From positions 1 to 26,126 of IMG/VR virus record IMGVR_UViG_3300023084_000110: a stretch of DNA of 26,126 nt; one strand, written 5' to 3'. Positions 14,853 to 24,972 of the stretch are shown here, piece by piece. Both the position numbers and the translations under genes were made by a program. The stretch is from a virus. The number at the start of each line of letters is the position of its first letter. Within the stretch, counting starts at the first letter, position 1. The notes below the pieces were generated by a model that was not told the DNA's origin, did no database searches, and saw only the letters and a list, made by a program, of their open reading frames with translations.

Positions 14853-15161
14853 CTACCACTTTTCCTTATCAGCCCAATAAGCGGCTGACATTTTGCCTTT
14901 AGCAATGTTCTTAGCGTGTCTAGCCTTAAACGACTTACGTCTAGCTTTTTGACGATCCGACTCACCTTTCTTAGGTGCTCCTGCAGTAGTAACACCAGCT
15001 TGTCCAAATCGAATTGTTTTAACTTTATCGCCATCCTTTGCTACCACAATGTGACTCTTTGTTGGGTGACCGGGAGTACGTTTAGGTTTATTGAAACCTT
15101 TTACCCCCGCTCTAGCAATCCTAGGATCTTTTTCTTCGCAGAAAATCTTAAAGGTAATCAT
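14853..15161 (-). CDS. DUF6321-like basic phage protein, 102 aa
   Basis: The C-terminal two thirds (KTIRFGQAGV, then KARRKSFKARHAKN and GKMSAAYWADKEKW) are a motif set I associate with DUF6321, common in cyanophage and other phage virion clusters. The N-terminus MITFKIFCEEKDPRIARAGV resembles the M-x-F-x-x-(F/Y)-(L/I/C)-E pattern shared by other late proteins here. It is strongly basic, so contact with packaged DNA is plausible. The ATG overlaps the stop of the 851-aa gene (ATGA). The domain name is from memory. Confidence 0.68.
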   Translation of the reverse strand: MITFKIFCEEKDPRIARAGVKGFNKPKRTPGHPTKSHIVVAKDGDKVKTIRFGQAGVTTAGAPKKGESDRQKARRKSFKARHAKNIAKGKMSAAYWADKEKW

Positions 15162-17713
15162 TTCTTATTCCTATTTTTAGAATTATAAGGATGATCTGGA
15201 CCTAACATAGAATCTACTGCTGCCTGTCTATCTTGGGGCCTACGCTTTTCCCAGTTGTTAGTCGTAGCGTCTTTTTTTCCCGACATAGAACCTGTTTTTA
15301 CTACGCCAGATTTTTTAATCTTATTAATAAGCTGCATGTTTCTCATAGAGGCGGATTCGGTCTTAGGGGCTTCTGCAGATTTTTTAGCGGCCATTTTTGC
15401 CAGCCGTTTCGCAAGATTTTTTGTTTTTATAACATTACCAAACTGATCTTTTCTTTCAGGCTCGGGCTTCTTCCATCCGGTATCTGTTTTCCATTCACCT
15501 TTTTCTTCCCTAATCGAAGCTTTATAAAGTTCTAATCCCTTCGCATACTTAGGATTCTTCATCATTTTTTTAGACTCGGGATTATCAGGATTTTGGTGAG
15601 CCATACGTACAGTTGGTTCATCTAAATTATGCTTTTTCATATGATCCTTATATACACCAAACTTTTTAGAGTCCACACTTGGCCCGAATCTATTTCTCAT
15701 TGTGGTCATTGTGTGGCGTGGTCCGGCCTCAGATACGGTTTCTTCTTTTCTTAGCATTTTAAAAGTTTTGTTAACAGCTTTATCATCAGCCCTTTTTAGA
15801 CCAGTTTCACGGTTAGACATCTTCTTTACAGCTTTATCAAACCCAGGCTTATCGCCACGTACGGTACTGGCAAGAGCAGAGTTTTTAGCACGGTTTAAAC
15901 CAGACTTAGCTTTATCTTTGTAACTTCTCATTGCCTGTGGTGTATCAAGAACTTCATCAACTTGTACAGAATCTTTGATATTGTTTTTCTTTTTGTACTT
16001 GTCGTATTGACCGTCTGGATTGATACCACGCTTACGAGCTTTTGCATCAGCCTTATCAGTGTCCATCATATGCTTAGCATAACCCATTTTAGCCATTTTT
16101 GGATCTTGCTTTTTATGCTCTGCATCTTTCTGATCTTGCCGCTTCTTACGAATTGCCTGCATGTTCTTCATGGTCATTAGACGATCTTTAGATGTGTACT
16201 TACCACCAAACATACCAGACTTATCAGCATACTTAGCAGATGTGCCAACTGCTTCGTCAAGTTCTACTTCTTCTTTTTTGAGGCCGGATAATTTCATACG
16301 AGCATCATAGTGTTTAGCTCTATCCATACTACGATTTAGACCCATTTTATGAAGTTTATCAGTTGCCTTATTTCTATCAATTTCTGTTTTGGCTGTTGCT
16401 GTCCGTGCTTTATTTCTAGCTTGTTTTTCTCTTTCACGTCTAAGGTCGGAAGCTAAGTCCTCATTCGTTTGGGCATCGTCGTCATTCATCATATAACGAT
16501 GTGCAGTGTTTAAATAGTCTGCGGCCTTAGTGATTTTATTTTGTACCCACTCTGGTAAGTTTTGATCGTCAGAGAACATCTTAATCATGTGCTCTGCATC
16601 TGTTAGAATACCTTTTAGCTGGGTCTTAGCCATTGCACCTTCGTTATCATATTCGCCAGGATCTTTCTCTTCCATTGTTGACCGAGGTCTTTTATTCATA
16701 ACTGTTTGAGTACGCTTTGTTACTTTATCAAGTTTTTTATCAATGTGTTTCATAGTCGGACTAGTTATACCAAGACGGCCAAACGCATCAGCTTCTGTGT
16801 AAGACTCTTTTTTAATCCAGTTCTTTCCTTCTGGATTATATGCATCGTACATGCAGCTTTCACTCTTTGGTTTACCAAATTCGTCACCACAGTGTTTGCA
16901 GCACATACCGTTCATGTCTTTTTCTTCTTTGACTGCCTTACGGGCTTTATTGAACATAGCATCGTCACCAGTAATCATGCCAATTAATTCTCCAAGCATA
17001 TCGAATAGAATGCCCCGTTCTTTTTGTGGAACAGCTTTACCATCCTTCATAAGTGTTAAGGCACGAACGATCTTCGTCATATCCTTTTTATCCATAAGAC
17101 CTAGGCGAACAAGCTGCTTAACCTTTTCCATTTCCGGATCTTGTGCTTCTAGAATCTCTGTCCCTTCTTTTACTGACTCGTTATATTGATTGGCCCTCTG
17201 AGTTGCTGCATGTGCCGCTCGGCTTCCTCCGCCACTAGCTACCTCAGGACGAAGATGTTTTGGCTTAGAAAGATAATTATCGTAATATGATGCGGCTTTC
17301 ATATGGGCTCTTGCAGCAGCTTTGTGTACTGATGCAGCCATTCTATCACCATCTTTATGTGCTTTTTCAGCTTGTCGCTCGTGATGATTAGCTTGATCTT
17401 CATGTGCATCAGCGCGGCTCTCAATGCTACCTTTTAAATATGCTCCTTCTGCAACTCTTTTGGCTGTGGCGGTTGCAATGGCCATTTTCTTTTTCATATC
17501 CATACCTGGGTTATCCCTTTCCATAGCCTTTGCAATCTCCTCCCGCTTCTTTTTCTCAGCAGGGGTCAAAGTCTTTTCATTGGTCTCTTCCTTTTTCACA
17601 GGAACCATCCGGATTTTAATTTTACCATCCTTATCAGTATATTTCTCAGGCTTCTTATCAGCCGATTGCGTGGTCCTATCCCAGTTTTCTTTCATTTCTT
17701 TTATGGTTTTCAT
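15158..17713 (-). CDS. 851-aa modular Lys/Ala/Met-rich virion protein (LPEWVQ-module)
   Basis: This large, highly charged protein appears to be a string of modules. An Ala/His/Lys-rich helix lies at about residues 95-145 (repeated A-H-K-A pattern). A helical ITGDDAMF(N)KARKAVKEE unit lies near 220-263, and a Cys cluster (CCKHCG, 271-276, plus C287) might bind zinc. A module ending LPEWVQNKITKAADYLNTAH (386-405) is very frequent in cyanophage and pelagiphage structural proteins (recollection). A long Lys/Asp/Met-rich disordered tail follows. Sites of the form ILE/A (187-190), LDE/A (485-488) and VAE/G (88-90) resemble T4 prohead-protease cleavage points. It is probably an internal or core protein, possibly processed. 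Confidence 0.6.
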   Translation of the reverse strand: MKTIKEMKENWDRTTQSADKKPEKYTDKDGKIKIRMVPVKKEETNEKTLTPAEKKKREEIAKAMERDNPGMDMKKKMAIATATAKRVAEGAYLKGSIESRADAHEDQANHHERQAEKAHKDGDRMAASVHKAAARAHMKAASYYDNYLSKPKHLRPEVASGGGSRAAHAATQRANQYNESVKEGTEILEAQDPEMEKVKQLVRLGLMDKKDMTKIVRALTLMKDGKAVPQKERGILFDMLGELIGMITGDDAMFNKARKAVKEEKDMNGMCCKHCGDEFGKPKSESCMYDAYNPEGKNWIKKESYTEADAFGRLGITSPTMKHIDKKLDKVTKRTQTVMNKRPRSTMEEKDPGEYDNEGAMAKTQLKGILTDAEHMIKMFSDDQNLPEWVQNKITKAADYLNTAHRYMMNDDDAQTNEDLASDLRREREKQARNKARTATAKTEIDRNKATDKLHKMGLNRSMDRAKHYDARMKLSGLKKEEVELDEAVGTSAKYADKSGMFGGKYTSKDRLMTMKNMQAIRKKRQDQKDAEHKKQDPKMAKMGYAKHMMDTDKADAKARKRGINPDGQYDKYKKKNNIKDSVQVDEVLDTPQAMRSYKDKAKSGLNRAKNSALASTVRGDKPGFDKAVKKMSNRETGLKRADDKAVNKTFKMLRKEETVSEAGPRHTMTTMRNRFGPSVDSKKFGVYKDHMKKHNLDEPTVRMAHQNPDNPESKKMMKNPKYAKGLELYKASIREEKGEWKTDTGWKKPEPERKDQFGNVIKTKNLAKRLAKMAAKKSAEAPKTESASMRNMQLINKIKKSGVVKTGSMSGKKDATTNNWEKRRPQDRQAAVDSMLGPDHPYNSKNRNKK

Positions 17714-17967
17714 TTATTTAACCTCGCTTTTTGCTTAGCCCATAGATCGGGATCGCCTTTAACTCTTGTTCTTCCACCAGTAATAAAACTATTTACTCTA
17801 GCCATTCCCCATTGTTGTGGGGTGGTACCAGGCTTGTGGCCAACCTTCCAAGCTGCTACGCCTCTGCTATAAACCTTTTTCAGGATTCCTAATGAGAATC
17901 CTGATTTCTTAGCTTTATCAGCCAGAGCTGAATCTGAACTCTCCAAGAATAATTGAAATGATTTCAT
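17710..17967 (-). CDS. DUF5824-like phage protein, 85 aa, with capsid-targeting-like N-terminus
   Basis: The segment AWKVGHKPGTTPQQWGMARV (residues 39-58) followed by NSFITGG is a recurrent phage motif that I recall as DUF5824, preceded here by a K-K-S-G-F-S-L-G-I-L-K-K-V-Y-S-R-G helix. The N-terminus MKSFQLFLES strongly resembles the T4 internal-protein capsid-targeting sequence MKTYQEFIAE as I remember it. The ATG shares a base with the upstream stop (TAATG), and the stop overlaps the 851-aa gene start (ATGA). Its function is unknown. Confidence 0.65.
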   Translation of the reverse strand: MKSFQLFLESSDSALADKAKKSGFSLGILKKVYSRGVAAWKVGHKPGTTPQQWGMARVNSFITGGRTRVKGDPDLWAKQKARLNK

Positions 17968-19370
17968 TAGTTATCCCCGTACATTTGTTTAAACTTTTTC
18001 GTATACTGTGATGGCTTTGTGCCTTTTGCTCTAGCCTTCTTATCACCTGGTGCATCTTTATATAGATCTGGATTACCGTGATCATCACGCTTAGACATTT
18101 TCTTAAAGTGTGCGTCACGTGCTGTCTTTGTAGACTTAGACTTTATACCCATTTGGAATGTAGCAGGCTGTGAGCCTTTGCGGTCATCAATATCAGGATC
18201 TTGGCGAACCTGAATCTTTTCCTGCATAGGTTTTTGCTTTAGATATTTTTTACGAGAGATTGGCGGTCCACCATATTCATTTACATCTTCACCTTGAGCC
18301 TTTTTAATAGCATCAGGTGTAGGCGCACCTTTTTCGCCTTTCTTTCTCATCCGCTCGCCACGTGCGCGCTTAGCCCAAATGTTAGCCCAAAGACCTTCAG
18401 ATTTTTCTCCGGGTGTCATGGATTTAGCTTTTTTAGTAGAATCTGGTGTACCCCATTCGGGTTGATTTGCTTCTTGTAATGATTCTCTAACCACACCATC
18501 ATTGTCGTCGTTAGGAATATCCTGTACATCCCAGTTTACTTGTTGATTGGGATCAACCTTAGAAATATCATCCAGCCAACATCTCCAGGTCTCTCCTTTA
18601 GATTCCACAATAACATAATTCGTACCAAGATGTTGGATGTTACCAACAATCCCATGTCTAGTCATTACGACCTGGTCACCCTTCTCAAATATGTTATCTC
18701 GAATGTAGGCTTCCCTAAGTTCGGATACTGGCTCTAGTTGTACGTGGTTTTTAAATTGCTTAGCCTCTTTTAATCCCATTGCCTTACGAATAGTGTTAAA
18801 CATTTTTTTGGCATCAGGATTAGAAACTGCCTTTGGTAATCCTTGTGAAAAGGATACAAAGTCATTATCCTTTGCAAAGCCTCTCATCTTAGATGCTGAC
18901 ATACCTTCAACACCTTCTGAATCAGGATCTCTTTCACCTGCAGAGATTACTTTAATTGATTTAAAATTATAGAATCCATGGGTAGATTTCTTACCATTAT
19001 ATTTGTTTAGTAAGATGTCAAACTCTCTAAGACGATCTGATCCAACCACCATTACTAGGTTAATAAACCCTTCGTCATACAGAGCAGATGCTGCGGCCAT
19101 AGGATTATTAACTTTTTTATTCATCATAATGGATCGAGCATGCTTAGGGAATAACTTCCTAGCAAATTTAATCTTTTCTTGATATTTTAATGGATTCTTA
19201 TTTTGATCCTGGGATTGGGATAGAAAGACTCTATACGGATTGGATCCAGATTTCTGGGATAAAACATCAAGCAACTTACCATGACCAATCGTCGGGGGAT
19301 TCATCCTCCCGAACGTAAAGAATACAGTCTTTTCCTCTTCTACTAAAAACTGTGAAAAACTGTTAAACAT
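17967..19370 (-). CDS. HIGH-superfamily nucleotidyltransferase fused to a packaged-protein-like tail, 467 aa
   Basis: Residues 15-165 are a cytidylyltransferase/NMNAT-like domain: FFTFGRMNPPTIGHGKLL (17-34) carries the (T/H)xGH motif, VVGSDR (108-113) is the substrate loop, and SASKMR (158-163) replaces the ISSTxxR motif. An SH3/KOW-like beta segment follows (about 228-272, GDQVVMTRHGIVGNIQHLGT then ETWRCWLDD). The remaining 170 residues are basic and low-complexity, including ARDAHFKKMSK and SQYTKKFKQMYG modules. The N-terminus MFNSFSQFLVEEE looks like a capsid-targeting signal, and LKE/A (200-203), LRE/A (218-221) and LQE/A (298-301) could be prohead-protease sites separating the parts. The start at 19370 is favoured because it is one base after the upstream stop. 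The substrate (NMN, CTP-linked or other) is unknown. Confidence 0.75.
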   Translation of the reverse strand: MFNSFSQFLVEEEKTVFFTFGRMNPPTIGHGKLLDVLSQKSGSNPYRVFLSQSQDQNKNPLKYQEKIKFARKLFPKHARSIMMNKKVNNPMAAASALYDEGFINLVMVVGSDRLREFDILLNKYNGKKSTHGFYNFKSIKVISAGERDPDSEGVEGMSASKMRGFAKDNDFVSFSQGLPKAVSNPDAKKMFNTIRKAMGLKEAKQFKNHVQLEPVSELREAYIRDNIFEKGDQVVMTRHGIVGNIQHLGTNYVIVESKGETWRCWLDDISKVDPNQQVNWDVQDIPNDDNDGVVRESLQEANQPEWGTPDSTKKAKSMTPGEKSEGLWANIWAKRARGERMRKKGEKGAPTPDAIKKAQGEDVNEYGGPPISRKKYLKQKPMQEKIQVRQDPDIDDRKGSQPATFQMGIKSKSTKTARDAHFKKMSKRDDHGNPDLYKDAPGDKKARAKGTKPSQYTKKFKQMYGDN

Positions 19371-19371
19371 A

Positions 19372-19827
19372 TTAAGATCGCTTTTTACCCATTTCTGCAC
19401 GTCTTAGTTGTGGTAACAACTTTTTAGCCAACCGGTTAACCCGGGGCTTCATTTTATCTAGACGGGCTTCTATTTCTTTTTTTCTAGAGGGGGTAAGATC
19501 TCTCTTAGCAATACCTTGAGTCAGCTTTTTAGCCATTGCTCTACGAGCAGCTTTTTGGGCTCTCTTAGCTAGAACCTTAGCACTAGCAATTTTAGCTTTG
19601 GCTTTTTTTGCACCAACTTGGATACGGGCTTGGAACTTTTGCATCCGTCTCTTAGCCTTCCGGCGTTGAGCTACTGTCCACGCTTCATCCATTTCTGAAT
19701 TCTCTATCTGGGTTTCCTCTGAAGTGGAAACATCCATTTTTCTTTTTTTCGCCTGACGTTTGATTAATTCATCTTCGCCTGGCATGTTATCTACAGGGGT
19801 AAAATCTTTAAAACTGACCTTTGCCAT
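19372..19827 (-). CDS. 151-aa extremely basic Lys/Arg/Ala-rich protein (probable DNA-binding internal protein)
   Basis: Residues 48-151 are almost entirely Lys, Arg, Ala and Met with helical periodicity (AQRRKAKRRMQKFQARI, AKKAKAKIASAKVLAKRAQK, then KARRAMAKK). This resembles histone-like or condensing internal virion proteins and a basic protein conserved at this place in cyanophages. An acidic N-terminal part (about 1-46) ends at MDE/A, a prohead-protease-like site, after which the basic part begins. Removal of the acidic segment inside the capsid would free the basic part for DNA. GAGGA lies five bases before the ATG, which directly follows the upstream stop (TAAATG). Confidence 0.65.
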   Translation of the reverse strand: MAKVSFKDFTPVDNMPGEDELIKRQAKKRKMDVSTSEETQIENSEMDEAWTVAQRRKAKRRMQKFQARIQVGAKKAKAKIASAKVLAKRAQKAARRAMAKKLTQGIAKRDLTPSRKKEIEARLDKMKPRVNRLAKKLLPQLRRAEMGKKRS

Positions 19828-21066
19828 TTAGTTCCTCGTTGGTTTGTCCCATCCTTTTAATATATCTGGTGAAAAGTTGTTGTATGAGAACTCCATACGA
19901 TCAACAAGTTTCACAGCGTCACCACCTAATTTGTCAATAGCAACAAAGCCTTCGGCTCCCGTTACTTTAAATCCATTCTTACTCTTAACAAAAGTTGAAA
20001 TATTTTGTAAAGTATTAAGCTTATTTATAAGTTTTAATTTCACAAGAACGATCAATTTTTGTAGATCAAACATCTTTTCTAGTGATTTTTTATTATCGTT
20101 CGAAAAAAAGCTTAATATTTTTTCTAGTTTATCTCTTTGGGTTGCTTTACCCTTTTCGCTTGTTCTTTTAGCTATTTCTTTGGCGTATCTAAGTCTGATC
20201 CACCTAATGAGCATTGATACGTGTCTTCCTGAATCTCCAATGACCTGTCCCTTTCTGACATACTTATTATTGAATTGCTCAATGAGGCGCGGTAGCTCTT
20301 CATGTGATTCAAGCTCCCTAAGGGTTGATCCGGCGATCTGGTTAAATAGTTTGCCAATTTCGGAAAGATTCGCGTTAACATCATCTGTGTCCTTTTTACT
20401 CATGGTTGCTTTGGTTAGATCTCTTAACATTGCATCCTGCGACCAAACGTTTTTACTTTTCTTTAGCGAGGAAACGTCGACTCCATAGTCTGCCCGATAG
20501 GTGGCAAAACCTCCACTTGGATTGGAGGACCGATAAGTGGTATGCCATACGATTCCGATTTTCGCGGATCTGACCGCTGCAGCAGAAGGGCTGCTAGCAG
20601 GTATAGCATAGACGATAGTATTAGGGTGGAAAGTAATATAGTCCTCACCATTAATCTTTTTCCTTTTAATATCCCCTGGCCCATATAAAAAATCACCCTG
20701 GATAATGCCTTTAATTCCTAATTCTGGTAAATGCTTTAGTGCGAGCTTAAGCTTAACAGCCAGATCACCGCTAGTATCAGCATCCACGTCAGCGTCAGAT
20801 TTATAGACCTTAGGATTCTTATTAAAGATTCCCTTTTTGGCGACAAAGAATTTGCCGTCACGTGGATCAGTGCCAGCAAAAATAGCAGGAGCACCATCCC
20901 ACTTAACAGATACATTACCGTCATGCTCACCTCTTAACATATCTCTTAGGCTCCGAAGAGCCATTATAGCATCCCGTGTTCCTTTGACCCCGCCATATAG
21001 AACTTTGTCCTCGATATGGGTCATGTGTGTATTTTTAGATTCTGTTATATATTCTGAAAAATTCAT
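19828..21066 (-). CDS. Covalent-nucleotidyltransferase/ligase-like protein (KWDG motif; DUF6267-like), 412 aa
   Basis: The protein shows ligase-superfamily motifs: VSVKWDGAP (residues 52-60) with K55 as the likely adenylated lysine (KxDG), IIQGDFLYG (121-129, the motif III acidic position), EGFV (372-375, motif IV) and AVKLVDR (384-390, motif V). About 240 residues, largely helical, separate motifs III and IV, far more than in a minimal ligase. A YITFHPNTIVYAIP strand pair (147-160) and IGIVWHTTYRSS (172-183) complete the fold. I recall this as DUF6267 in T4-like marine phages. The N-terminus MNFSEYITESK is capsid-targeting-like. Whether it seals nucleic acid or AMPylates another target is unknown. 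Confidence 0.7.
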   Translation of the reverse strand: MNFSEYITESKNTHMTHIEDKVLYGGVKGTRDAIMALRSLRDMLRGEHDGNVSVKWDGAPAIFAGTDPRDGKFFVAKKGIFNKNPKVYKSDADVDADTSGDLAVKLKLALKHLPELGIKGIIQGDFLYGPGDIKRKKINGEDYITFHPNTIVYAIPASSPSAAAVRSAKIGIVWHTTYRSSNPSGGFATYRADYGVDVSSLKKSKNVWSQDAMLRDLTKATMSKKDTDDVNANLSEIGKLFNQIAGSTLRELESHEELPRLIEQFNNKYVRKGQVIGDSGRHVSMLIRWIRLRYAKEIAKRTSEKGKATQRDKLEKILSFFSNDNKKSLEKMFDLQKLIVLVKLKLINKLNTLQNISTFVKSKNGFKVTGAEGFVAIDKLGGDAVKLVDRMEFSYNNFSPDILKGWDKPTRN

Positions 21067-22670
21067 TACTCGATCTCGTAGTTAATGTTGACTGCGTGTT
21101 CGTTTAGAGTACCAGTAGAGCTTATTGACATGCTTAATCTATCAAGTGGTGTTAGAATAATCCTTAGGTTTGATACATCAAGTGTAACATCAGAACCTGG
21201 TGAGAATGAATAAGAACCAATCAGCTTTTCTGTTTGGCCTGCTACAATAGTAGTCACAGTTTCTGATGTATCTGTACTTCCATCTCCGACCCCTGTATAT
21301 TGTAAATTCGCAGTAGTATCAGCATTAAGATATAACTTTAATTGAACAGGATCTGATGATGTACCAGTACCAACAACTGCAGCAGAAATTGTTTGAATAA
21401 TAATCTCACGTTGATTTAGTACACTCGGTTTACCATTTTCATTAATTCTATTATTCTTAATGGTTAATACATGGTGATCAGAACCAGAAGCTTTAGATGC
21501 TGATGAAGAAGCAGATACAGATCTTGCTGTATTATTACGAATGATCTGACCTTCAATACCTCCCATCATAGAAGCACCTTTCACTCGGACATCAGTTCCA
21601 GTGCCTAGACCAGGAGCAGCATTTACTACTGCATATCCAATACGCAATGATGGATTCGATAAGTGTGGTACTGTATTACTGTTTGCATATAATATTTCAT
21701 GGAATGGGAACAGTAGGCCAGTATTACCATCTTCAATCATAAACCTAATACGTCCTGCACCTAACCATCTAAAGTCAATTTGAAATACATTAAGTTTGGT
21801 TGTATCAATAATCATACCTGATGGGCCTCTACCATTAAGAGGATCAATATTAAAATCATCTTGATATACCCAAGTGTCATTAGGAACCGCACCAGGTTGA
21901 AGTTCAGTATATGTAGCTGCAAAGGTACCATCACTTGTAACCGAGAATGTTCCAGGTAATACACCGGGAGGTCCATTATAAAGCATCGTAATAGTATCTT
22001 GACAGTAATCAACGATCCATCCGGGAATGGGAAAATTACCTATCTCAGATGAGTTATGAGAAATAGTTCCTGCAGTAACTGGAACCGGAATTACAACATC
22101 ATTAAGAGTAAACGTAACTGTTTCATTACCAGTTGCTGCAGCAGTAATAACAAACTTAGCAACATGAGCATTTGAATTGTATCGACGAAGGACTGCAAAC
22201 TTGGAATTGTTTACGTTATATCCTACACCCAAAACGTTATTCTGATTGATAAATCCAGCAACTTGTTGATAACCATTTACTTGACCATTTGGCCACATTG
22301 CAGTAAATCGTGCAACTGAACCTTGACCTGGTCTATAACGAACTGATCTGTTCGATCTGAGTGTGGCAAAGGATCCAGCAGTACCACCTGATGATACTGT
22401 CATAATACCATCACTATCAATCAAAGAAGATCCAGAACCGGATTGGTTTTGTCTGAACTCAGATTCTATTCCATATAAACCATCAAGTTGAAAGAACGGA
22501 GAAAGTTCCGATGTGATTAATTCACCAAATGCACCAGCTGTAGCAGATCCACCTTGACCAGCAGGGTTAATGATGTTGCCATAACGATCAGAGATCATCA
22601 TAACCTCATGAATGTCATTTCTAGTTGCTTGTGTTAGATGTTTTTGTCTGTTTACACTAAATTGTGCCAT
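21066..22670 (-). CDS. 534-aa beta-rich virion structural protein (fibre or decoration type)
   Basis: This Ser/Thr/Gly/Asn-rich protein has no Lys-rich stretch and only one Cys, unlike its neighbours. Its composition and alternating hydrophobic strands indicate beta-sandwich domains. Recognisable segments are GAFGELITSELSPFFQLDGL (residues 46-65), VRYRPGQGSVARFTAMW (110-126), GYNVNNSKFAVLRRY and LLFPFHEILYANSNTVPHL (near 320), followed by NPSLRIGYAVVNA. I remember this pattern from structural proteins of marine phages and some large eukaryotic algal viruses. A C-terminal beta-domain (about 410-534) looks separate. It is probably an exposed virion protein; host-receptor or glycan binding is possible but not shown. 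The ATG overlaps nothing and directly follows the upstream TAA, with GGAG six bases upstream. Confidence 0.62.
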   Translation of the reverse strand: MAQFSVNRQKHLTQATRNDIHEVMMISDRYGNIINPAGQGGSATAGAFGELITSELSPFFQLDGLYGIESEFRQNQSGSGSSLIDSDGIMTVSSGGTAGSFATLRSNRSVRYRPGQGSVARFTAMWPNGQVNGYQQVAGFINQNNVLGVGYNVNNSKFAVLRRYNSNAHVAKFVITAAATGNETVTFTLNDVVIPVPVTAGTISHNSSEIGNFPIPGWIVDYCQDTITMLYNGPPGVLPGTFSVTSDGTFAATYTELQPGAVPNDTWVYQDDFNIDPLNGRGPSGMIIDTTKLNVFQIDFRWLGAGRIRFMIEDGNTGLLFPFHEILYANSNTVPHLSNPSLRIGYAVVNAAPGLGTGTDVRVKGASMMGGIEGQIIRNNTARSVSASSSASKASGSDHHVLTIKNNRINENGKPSVLNQREIIIQTISAAVVGTGTSSDPVQLKLYLNADTTANLQYTGVGDGSTDTSETVTTIVAGQTEKLIGSYSFSPGSDVTLDVSNLRIILTPLDRLSMSISSTGTLNEHAVNINYEIE

Positions 22671-24071
22671 TTATGCTCCGGCCTCCACTTTTACATACAC
22701 TGAAGAATCAGAGGTTTTAGATCCGGCCAGATTAACTAGATAAGAAATAAACTGATCCCGTTTTGTTTTAGTTGCTTGATCCACTGCATAGATTATTTCT
22801 GTAGCACCCAAGTTAGCATGAATCCGATCAACACTTTGTTTTTTTAGTTCCTCCCAAAACGGCTCCCAGGCTATATCCGAATGAATTGAATGTGCTTTTT
22901 CCCAAAGCGCTTTTGCCGAAGTTTCATTCTTTCCACCTAGCATTGCTCGCGAAGCAGTTTTAAGCTGATCGTTAGTTTTTAATGTTACACCTAAATACTC
23001 CTTCGCAGCGTATTCAATTGAACCATATCCACTACGTCCACCTCTTGCGCCAGTTCCTTGAATCTCTACGTTTAGTGGACCTAAATTAGTAGGGGCTCTA
23101 ACATCCATTTTCTTTTGACGATCAAAGAATATATATCCGCCTTTTGATGACCAGAATGTAGCGTTTCTAGTAGAAGCTTTAAGAATAGAATGATCATAGG
23201 TGTGCTTACCAAGCTCCACGCCATCCAAATTATAATCGGTTAACTTTGCTTTGGTAGTAAGTTTATTAATCTGCTTTAGAGAAATACCAACAATATCTCG
23301 ATCTATGAAAGCCTGCTTAATTGTAGAATTAAGATTCTGTACACTAGTAGCATCCAATTTAGTAGATAGATTAATGGTTTTCTTAATCGCCCATATATCT
23401 CCAGGGTTCCATTTATCGCCTGCCAACTGGGGTTTCCCATCCGCCCTAAAAGCTTTCGTTTTCATTTTATAGATTTCATTCATTTTAGTAGAGCCTCTAT
23501 GGAAAGTGTGATCCTTCCCCACATATTTTTTATCGATTAACGCTTTACCTGATACGTATGCAGATATGTGCCAACCTTCTGCCGAGCTCATCATATCTTC
23601 AAATGTACGATCAGTATCAATAACCGTAGAATATTTCTTTAGGACCTCAGGAGTAAAATGTGAAAATTCCTTCTTTACCCCTTCACCTATCAGTGCGGCA
23701 AGATATAAACACTGAAGGGCTTCTCCGTTAGCGGTAACACCTGTCGCACCAGCTCCTTGTCCCGCACCTCCGAATATCGGTGCTTTACCCAGTGTGTTAG
23801 AAAGTATGTTAGATTTATCAGCAAGGGTAAGAATGAAATATTGATCTTTGCTAGATTTAAAGTTTTCAATAGCATCTAGATTTGCTTTAGTGTTAGGTAT
23901 AGAAACATCCTTACCATTTACATCTGGGACTGCACTCCCATCTTTTATAGCTTGTGCTAAAATGTCCAATCGCACGTCAGTGGTTCGCGCCTTTACTTTT
24001 AGCCACTGAGCACGTGTCATAGGTGAATACATACTACGTCTTTCCGTTAAAAAATCTCTGAATCGAAGCAT
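22671..24071 (-). CDS. 466-aa late virion-region protein, unknown (first gene of late operon)
   Basis: The N-terminus MLRFRDFLTERR is of the capsid-targeting-like type seen in several late genes. A polar region follows, then AIFGGAGQGAGATG-type glycine stretches (about residues 98-112) and an alpha/beta part containing GDKWNPGDIWAIKK (near 220) and, about 40 residues later, DIVGISLKQI. The PxDIW...GISLK order is reminiscent of the D...(S/E)xK core of PD-(D/E)XK nucleases, but the other motifs are not obvious. The family appears common in T4-like marine phages (recollection). It has only a weak ribosome-binding site. It lies 25-30 bases behind the late promoter, so it opens the virion operon. 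Function unassigned. Confidence 0.6.
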   Translation of the reverse strand: MLRFRDFLTERRSMYSPMTRAQWLKVKARTTDVRLDILAQAIKDGSAVPDVNGKDVSIPNTKANLDAIENFKSSKDQYFILTLADKSNILSNTLGKAPIFGGAGQGAGATGVTANGEALQCLYLAALIGEGVKKEFSHFTPEVLKKYSTVIDTDRTFEDMMSSAEGWHISAYVSGKALIDKKYVGKDHTFHRGSTKMNEIYKMKTKAFRADGKPQLAGDKWNPGDIWAIKKTINLSTKLDATSVQNLNSTIKQAFIDRDIVGISLKQINKLTTKAKLTDYNLDGVELGKHTYDHSILKASTRNATFWSSKGGYIFFDRQKKMDVRAPTNLGPLNVEIQGTGARGGRSGYGSIEYAAKEYLGVTLKTNDQLKTASRAMLGGKNETSAKALWEKAHSIHSDIAWEPFWEELKKQSVDRIHANLGATEIIYAVDQATKTKRDQFISYLVNLAGSKTSDSSVYVKVEAGA

Positions 24072-24466: not shown

Positions 24467-24940
24467 TTAAAATTTATAAAGATATTTTGCTATATGCCCA
24501 ACAAATGGTAGAAGCATCAATGCCATTATTAAATTCATTCCAGTATGTGCCATAGCTATTCGAAGGGTATCACCTCTAGGCCATCCGTCTGAAACAAAAA
24601 AGCCAGCTAGCCATATCGTACCCGTGGTACCAATATTAGCCCCTAGAACTGCTGCAACTGCAGCTGGAAGAGGTAAAGCCCCAGATGCAACTAATGCAAT
24701 AATAGCTGTAGTTGAAAGAGAGGAGGATTGCCACAAAAGAGTCATGACTATTCCACCGACGAACATATAAATTGGATTACCTAAAAAGAATTGTAGGTGA
24801 TCCATATTTCCCATCGACTTCATACCTCCCGAGAAGGTTTTAAGGCCAATATAAAATATTACCAACCCGACCAGAGCTGTAATTACAGGATTACCTAGAT
24901 CCATCTTCTTTACCCTTTTCCATAGTTTTGTGTTACCCAT
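24467..24940 (-). CDS. Half-length Na+/phosphate cotransporter-like membrane protein (PF02690 type), 157 aa
   Basis: This integral membrane protein has one Na/Pi-cotransporter repeat. A first helix (about residues 18-35) is followed by VGGIVMTLLWQSSSLSTTAI (61-80), carrying the QSSS signature, then LPAAVAAVLGANIGTTGTIW (91-110) with the GANIGTT motif, and a C-terminal helix (128-150). Full-length NptA/PNaS proteins contain two such repeats in inverted topology plus a PhoU-like part, so this copy is about half a core. It could act as a homodimer or modify a host transporter. The start at 24940 is chosen for AGGA eight bases upstream; an ATG at 24958 lacks a ribosome site. It could help phosphate supply during infection, an inference. 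Confidence 0.78.
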   Translation of the reverse strand: MGNTKLWKRVKKMDLGNPVITALVGLVIFYIGLKTFSGGMKSMGNMDHLQFFLGNPIYMFVGGIVMTLLWQSSSLSTTAIIALVASGALPLPAAVAAVLGANIGTTGTIWLAGFFVSDGWPRGDTLRIAMAHTGMNLIMALMLLPFVGHIAKYLYKF

Positions 24941-24972
24941 TTCTACTTCCTGTTTCATTTATGAGTAATTAT

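Follow-up and report, generated by a model that had tools for sequence, protein, structure and literature searches.

Five proteins encoded by one gene cluster of a 26,126-base viral DNA (an entire IMG/VR virus record, hereafter the window) begin with short sequences that are probably T4-type capsid-targeting propeptides, which would dock the proteins in the prohead, be cut off by a gp21-type protease and leave a cargo that may pass into the cell along with the DNA. The packaging of the tagged proteins is well supported; docking, tag removal and an injection preceding phage gene expression would follow by analogy with T4. The tag system is already established for T4; what is novel is that marine Kyanoviridae-type phages use it, that a conserved NMNAT-like virion enzyme bears it and that so many different proteins are tagged. 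This enzyme recurs in cyanophage virions with its entry unexplained, and the tag offers a testable route; more generally, the sequence rule would predict which unknown proteins of some of the most abundant ocean viruses ride in the particles and act before phage genes are expressed.

The window, a fragment without head genes, had no match to known phages in a DNA similarity search of 50,697 phage records; judged from their sequences, its proteins belong with those of T4-like marine phages of the Kyanoviridae type. Among complete genomes that of Phage C48C1 comes closest, with protein identities of 63% for the DUF6267 protein and 58% for the nucleotidyltransferase, and a neighbouring gene pair of the window is also found in Methylophilales phage Melnitz, Stenotrophomonas phage DLP_6, pelagiphage HTVC008M and many cyanophages. 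At 24467-24958 the window also encodes a short hydrophobic protein resembling, by eye only, half a sodium/phosphate symporter.

Mutagenesis of the T4 leader has assigned targeting to residues 4 and 7 and processing to residues 8 and 10, the gp21 cleavage site lying after L/I-x-E (PMC9026906). In the T4 record, used as a control, IPII and IPIII begin MKTYQEFIAE and IPI begins MKTFKEF; the sequence-only reading, which took the IPIII start to be a capsid-targeting sequence, agrees with the record, and the window signal matches the residues that matter (PMC9026906). The five N-termini, at 15161, 17967, 19370, 21066 and 24071, are indeed genuine starts of minus-strand reading frames and lie at the coordinates first given for them. 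The pattern M-x(1-3)-[FY]-x-x-[FY]-[LIVMC]-x-E is fitted by four (MFNSFSQFLVEE, MNFSEYITES, MLRFRDFLTE and MITFKIFCEE) but not by MKSFQLFLES, whose Glu comes one residue early. These four match T4 MKTYQEFIAE at positions 4, 7, 8 and 10, one of them with Cys at 8; the spacing is shifted by one residue in two of the window N-termini, and the aromatic pair of positions 4 and 7 is kept in all five. The processing site L/I-x-E at positions 8-10 is present at 24071, 21066 and 19370 and reads C-E-E at 15161, while MKSFQLFLES retains positions 4 and 7 only, has Glu at 9 rather than 10 and is without a normal cleavage site; because the orthologues of its gene carry the normal form (MIRFKNFLYE, MITFKSYLAE and similar), it looks like a local departure. 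At the position that follows the predicted cut, E, Q or K is common, as against A or S in T4.

All genes of the cluster lie on the minus strand. The 466-aa candidate cargo protein (22671..24071, PHROG 1462) opens with the tag MLRFRDFLTE (24042..24071, predicted cut LTE/R), which in relatives reads MLRFKAFLLE, MKSFKSFITE, MLRFKSFILE or MLGFKGFLAE; it is followed by an untagged 534-aa virion structural protein (21066..22670; PHROG 1645, head and packaging, E=1e-26) and by the DUF6267 protein (19828..21066; Pfam PF19782, E=1e-98) with the tag MNFSEYITE (21040..21066, predicted cut ITE/S). The very basic 151-aa protein at 19372..19827 (45 K+R vs 17 D+E) is the sixth gene concerned: its N-terminus, MAKVSFKDFTP, contains a degenerate tag, MAKVSFKDF (19801..19827), with the aromatic pair and no L/I-x-E, and its C48C1 orthologue has a complete one, MLSFKQFVSE. 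The nucleotidyltransferase (17967..19370; PHROG 3041/395), in which a predicted NMNAT/PPAT (HIGH) superfamily domain is joined to an SH3-like domain and a basic tail, carries MFNSFSQFLVE (19338..19370, predicted cut LVE/E), and the DUF5824 basic protein of 85 aa (17710..17967; Pfam PF19141, E=1e-15) carries the variant MKSFQLFLE (17941..17967). Finally, the basic 102-aa protein at 14853..15161 (PHROG 7595) begins with MITFKIFCEE (15132..15161), having Cys at 8 (P3), where orthologues have MIKFKEFLEE, MIKFKAFVEE or MKKFAQFIEE. Between the last two genes lies an untagged, charged 851-aa protein of the same cluster (15158..17713) with several L/I/V-x-E-A/G/S sites; it has five [LIV]-x-E-[AGS] sites vs 1.4 expected (at least five in 11 of 1000 shuffles), some of them within repeats such as KEEVELDEAV, and could be cut at multiple points by the prohead protease.

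Whether the resemblance exceeds chance was assessed by comparing start-region Met with internal Met of the same proteins, by Fisher's test and by shuffling. In the window, 3 of 71 start-region Met carry the motif and none of the 216 internal ones does (p=0.015); the 15161 gene is absent from this count since the automatic caller missed it on account of an overlapping ORF. The complete C48C1 genome yielded seven genes and an enrichment at starts (8/314 start Met vs 0/866 internal, p=2e-5); six of the seven are grouped within roughly 11 kb (CDS 81-96). The seventh, UvsW of C48C1 (MKDYSHFMVEA), was considered as tagged cargo and set aside as probably a chance match, being a replication/repair helicase encoded outside the cluster. 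S-SM1 and T4, each taken alone, give too few matches for significance, so that the case rests on the wider set; the scan of HTVC008M gave no match. Among IMG/VR loci fetched by homology of the protein bodies, with N-termini disregarded, the motif occurs at 183 of 3,016 start-region Met and at none of 7,260 internal Met (p=7e-100 by Fisher's test, with 1.1 expected from shuffling), related sequences in this set not being independent; it is found on 175 of the 1,544 genes of related viral contigs. When tagged proteins were clustered by their sequence past the first 16 residues, 113 unrelated body clusters were obtained overall, 25 of them represented outside motif-selected contigs (among these 25 are two internal proteins of T4 and one or more chance matches, UvsW being one); unrelated bodies having only the leader in common is exactly the pattern of the T4 internal proteins. 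Given F4, F/Y7 and an L8-type residue, Glu follows at position 10 in 338 of 400 starts. The motif enrichment at protein starts, far from chance, is thus confirmed.

That the N-termini owe their likeness to chance, to shared ancestry by duplication or to a sequence preference at translation starts is accordingly an explanation of almost negligible probability; homologues within one family are not independent, and C48C1 UvsW illustrates a single chance match, but there are no internal matches at all, the bodies are unrelated, and 183 observed matches stand against 1.1 in shuffled sequences. The constraint, moreover, acts at the protein level with free synonymous change: in 57 distinct DNA versions of the DUF6267 gene the key tag residues are kept while their codons change synonymously, and positions 5 and 6 vary freely.

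Support for packaging comes from the virions of related phages. Sullivan and colleagues detected a cytidylyltransferase (T4-GC 190) in S-SM1 virions (PMC3037559), and mass spectrometry identified the same enzyme in the virions of S-SCSM1 (PMC9602691), S-CREM2 (PMC10665884) and S-SZBM1 (PMC9146016). The T4-GC 190 gene is S-SM1_190, whose product begins MKKFSAFLNEA; the others begin MKSFLQFLKEA (S-SCSM1), MKNFSSFLTEA (S-CREM2) and MRFRQFIIEA (S-SZBM1). All four thus bear the full tag, and in each of them Ala comes directly after L/I-x-E; these four are every checked isolate whose virion proteome reports the enzyme. Peptide counts are low, 2-3 in S-SZBM1 (PMC9146016) and S-CREM2 (PMC10665884), where carry-over is possible, and carry-over is allowed for by the S-SCSM1 authors themselves (PMC9602691); with low counts in two of the four, these proteomes count as support rather than proof. 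The available text of the S-SM1, S-SCSM1, S-CREM2 and S-SZBM1 papers mentions neither a targeting leader nor an entry route for the enzyme, and a literature search found no paper tying such a leader to the virion enzymes of these phages. The 466-aa protein of the window is in turn a distant homologue of S-SCSM1_90 (23% over 248 aa, E=4e-10), which is annotated as a virion protein; the RegA translational repressor of S-SCSM1 (locus L300, 22559-22993) bears the same annotation.

Head and tail proteins are not told apart by virion proteomics, and the tag gene cluster adjoins virion structural genes, both of which would suit a peptide that docks proteins onto the neck, portal or tail instead of the head core. 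Such a role is nevertheless highly improbable, since the match to the head-targeting and processing residues of T4 is exact, down to the L/I-x-E of the gp21 site, and in C48C1 and S-SM1 the motif was not found in genes for tail or baseplate. The annotation of both these genomes includes gp21, gp22 and gp23, and C48C1 gp22 has six L/I-x-E-(A/G/S) sites; Peptidase_S77 was found in 15 of the 24 records searched and in 10 of the 11 exceeding 100 kb. On the contig from which locus L238 was taken (G008), a 593-aa open frame at 40032-41672 gives two separate Peptidase_S77 matches; this prohead protease may be a fusion or may be interrupted by an insertion.

By the T4 model of head targeting, the aromatic residues 4 and 7 would attach the proteins to the prohead's scaffold core, a gp21-type protease would cut after L/I-x-E at positions 8-10 and free the cargo inside the head, and the freed cargo would stay with the DNA and enter the cell together with it. 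The cargo of the window cluster would comprise the NMNAT-like nucleotidyltransferase, the ligase-like DUF6267 protein, the 466-aa virion protein and the small basic proteins; the best guess at its purpose is an immediate action on NAD-type cofactors of the host, on nucleic-acid ends or on host defence.

The nucleotidyltransferase had been correctly named from the sequence, as its predicted structure is NMNAT/PPAT-like: Foldseek matched it to NadD, NMNAT and PPAT (prob 1.00, E down to 4e-5), although a PDB profile search gave no match. The GRxNPPTxGH and SASKMR-type motifs are invariant or nearly so, and on the predicted structure, with its Rossmann-type fold, the protein is an NMNAT/PPAT-like member of the HIGH superfamily with NMN, NaMN or phosphopantetheine as putative substrates. 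Its start at 19370 lies two bases past the upstream stop codon (a mechanical ORF would start at the GTG at 19400), and the C48C1 orthologue encodes MIKNFSQYLLEE at the corresponding position, the GenBank start being 22 codons downstream; the latter appears to be placed too late (locus L001, 23449-23514), with loss of the leader and of part of the catalytic motif. The tag is predicted to be disordered and stops just short of the catalytic domain's first strand, so that cutting would leave the whole enzyme. Similar N-termini occur in other isolates: MKKFSAFLSEA in syn9, MKKFSAFLKEA in P-SSM4, MKNFHQFITEA in S-SRM01 and MKRYTNFLSEA in S-CREM1. The C-terminal half of the enzyme includes a GLWANIWAKRARGERMRKKGEKGAPT-type module that is also present in proteins of other phages, for instance in HTVC008M (locus L011, 8551-9063).

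The other enzyme candidate, which had been called ligase-like, does have conserved ligase-type motifs, but structure and profile searches did not confirm the fold. K55, D57, G58, E372, G373, V375, K386 and R390 are invariant in 23 DUF6267 sequences and fall in K55-W-D-G58, E372-G-F-V and K386-L-V-D-R390, resembling motif I (KxDG), motif IV (EGxV) and the motif V lysine (K-x-V-x-R) of nucleotidyl-transfer ligases. The AlphaFold model is of low confidence (mean pLDDT 68), with no Foldseek match at E<=0.001, and a PDB profile search and hhalign against T4 RnlA and gp30 gave no match to a ligase fold; with a weak model and no fold or profile match, the ligase label is tentative. The tag itself is an add-on to this protein: in the window, C48C1, DLP_6 and Melnitz it immediately precedes the conserved domain, at which the untagged P-HM2 and S-SZBM1 orthologues begin directly (MSKNTHLEHLED and MAKNTHLEHLED), and the proteins of HTVC008M, P-HM2 and most cyanophages are without it. 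DUF6267 was not found in the available part of the S-SZBM1 virion list (PMC9146016), nor is it reported in the available portions of published virion proteomes of related phages. The proposal that both enzymes are packaged is strengthened for the nucleotidyltransferase, by its orthologues detected in virions, the tag, its modular use and the protease in relatives, and less so for the DUF6267 protein.

When viral DNA was scanned for the pattern MKTFK[EQ]FIxE, at least 120 stretches matched, and several contigs, e.g. L181, L238, L243 and L279, have four to seven tagged genes close together, most such contigs being motif-selected and hence informative only for the neighbouring of tagged genes and for their functions. 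In L181 (5912-9422), L238 (3920-9838), L243 (1023-7692) and L279 (176-3845), neighbouring genes with unrelated bodies each carry a T4-like leader (MKTFKQFIxE and variants). Pfam assigned tagged proteins to the SAM lyase family, HD_4 (as in SpoT), Zeta-toxin-type kinases, glucosaminidase and DPBB, and weakly to ADP-ribosyltransferases. These wider scans suggest that an extensive and for the most part unstudied cargo bears the tag; on balance it seems likely that the tag delimits a broad, exchangeable repertoire of proteins that marine and other environmental T4-like phages package in the head and inject, encoded in places by runs of tagged genes, with NMNAT-like, SAM lyase, SpoT-like HD, Zeta-type kinase and ADP-ribosyltransferase-like cargo. 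If so, the delivered proteins of a phage could be read from sequence alone by means of the tag.

The nature of the cargo also bears on the idea that the tagged proteins act in the prohead core, in assembly, DNA condensation or head maturation, rather than being delivered in working form as enzymes. Many of them are small and very basic, and T4 IPIII does affect head assembly (PMC9026906); yet the nucleotidyltransferase has conserved catalytic motifs and an NMNAT fold, the SAM lyase, HD hydrolase and Zeta-type kinase cargo found elsewhere makes little structural sense, and the T4 internal proteins and Alt are injected, which makes a purely core role unlikely. Several known systems are close to this one. 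The likeness to T4 IPI, IPII and IPIII extends to the position at the protein start, the spacing, the aromatic residues 4 and 7, L/I8, E10 and the small basic cargo; unlike in T4, the cargo here includes conserved enzymes, the spacing can differ by one residue, a wider range of residues follows the cut, and the phages are Kyanoviridae rather than T-even coliphages. As with T4 Alt, a packaged and injected ADP-ribosyltransferase, a head-packaged enzyme would act on host components right after infection, but Alt has another leader (MELITELFDE) and another chemistry than the NMNAT/PPAT-like nucleotidyltransferase. The NMNAT-like or cytidylyltransferase protein of S-SM1, S-SCSM1, S-CREM2 and S-SZBM1 virions is an orthologous enzyme with the same gene neighbourhood in most of these phages. 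Phage polyvalent or injected effector proteins (PMC5512222, PMC9503650) are likewise enzymes carried in the head for early use; they are, however, large fusions recognised by their domains (PMC5512222, PMC9503650), whereas here a short tag is found on separate proteins and delivery is predicted.

SAM lyases and SpoT-like hydrolases have functions that would benefit from arrival with the DNA. The SAM lyase family protein at L187 (6790-7278) and its 15-member cluster have the complete leader MKTFKEFIHES, and these lyases are possibly injected anti-restriction enzymes; in a close relative of the window, an HD_4 (SpoT-like hydrolase) protein at L100 (336-905) begins MMESFKQYISEE.
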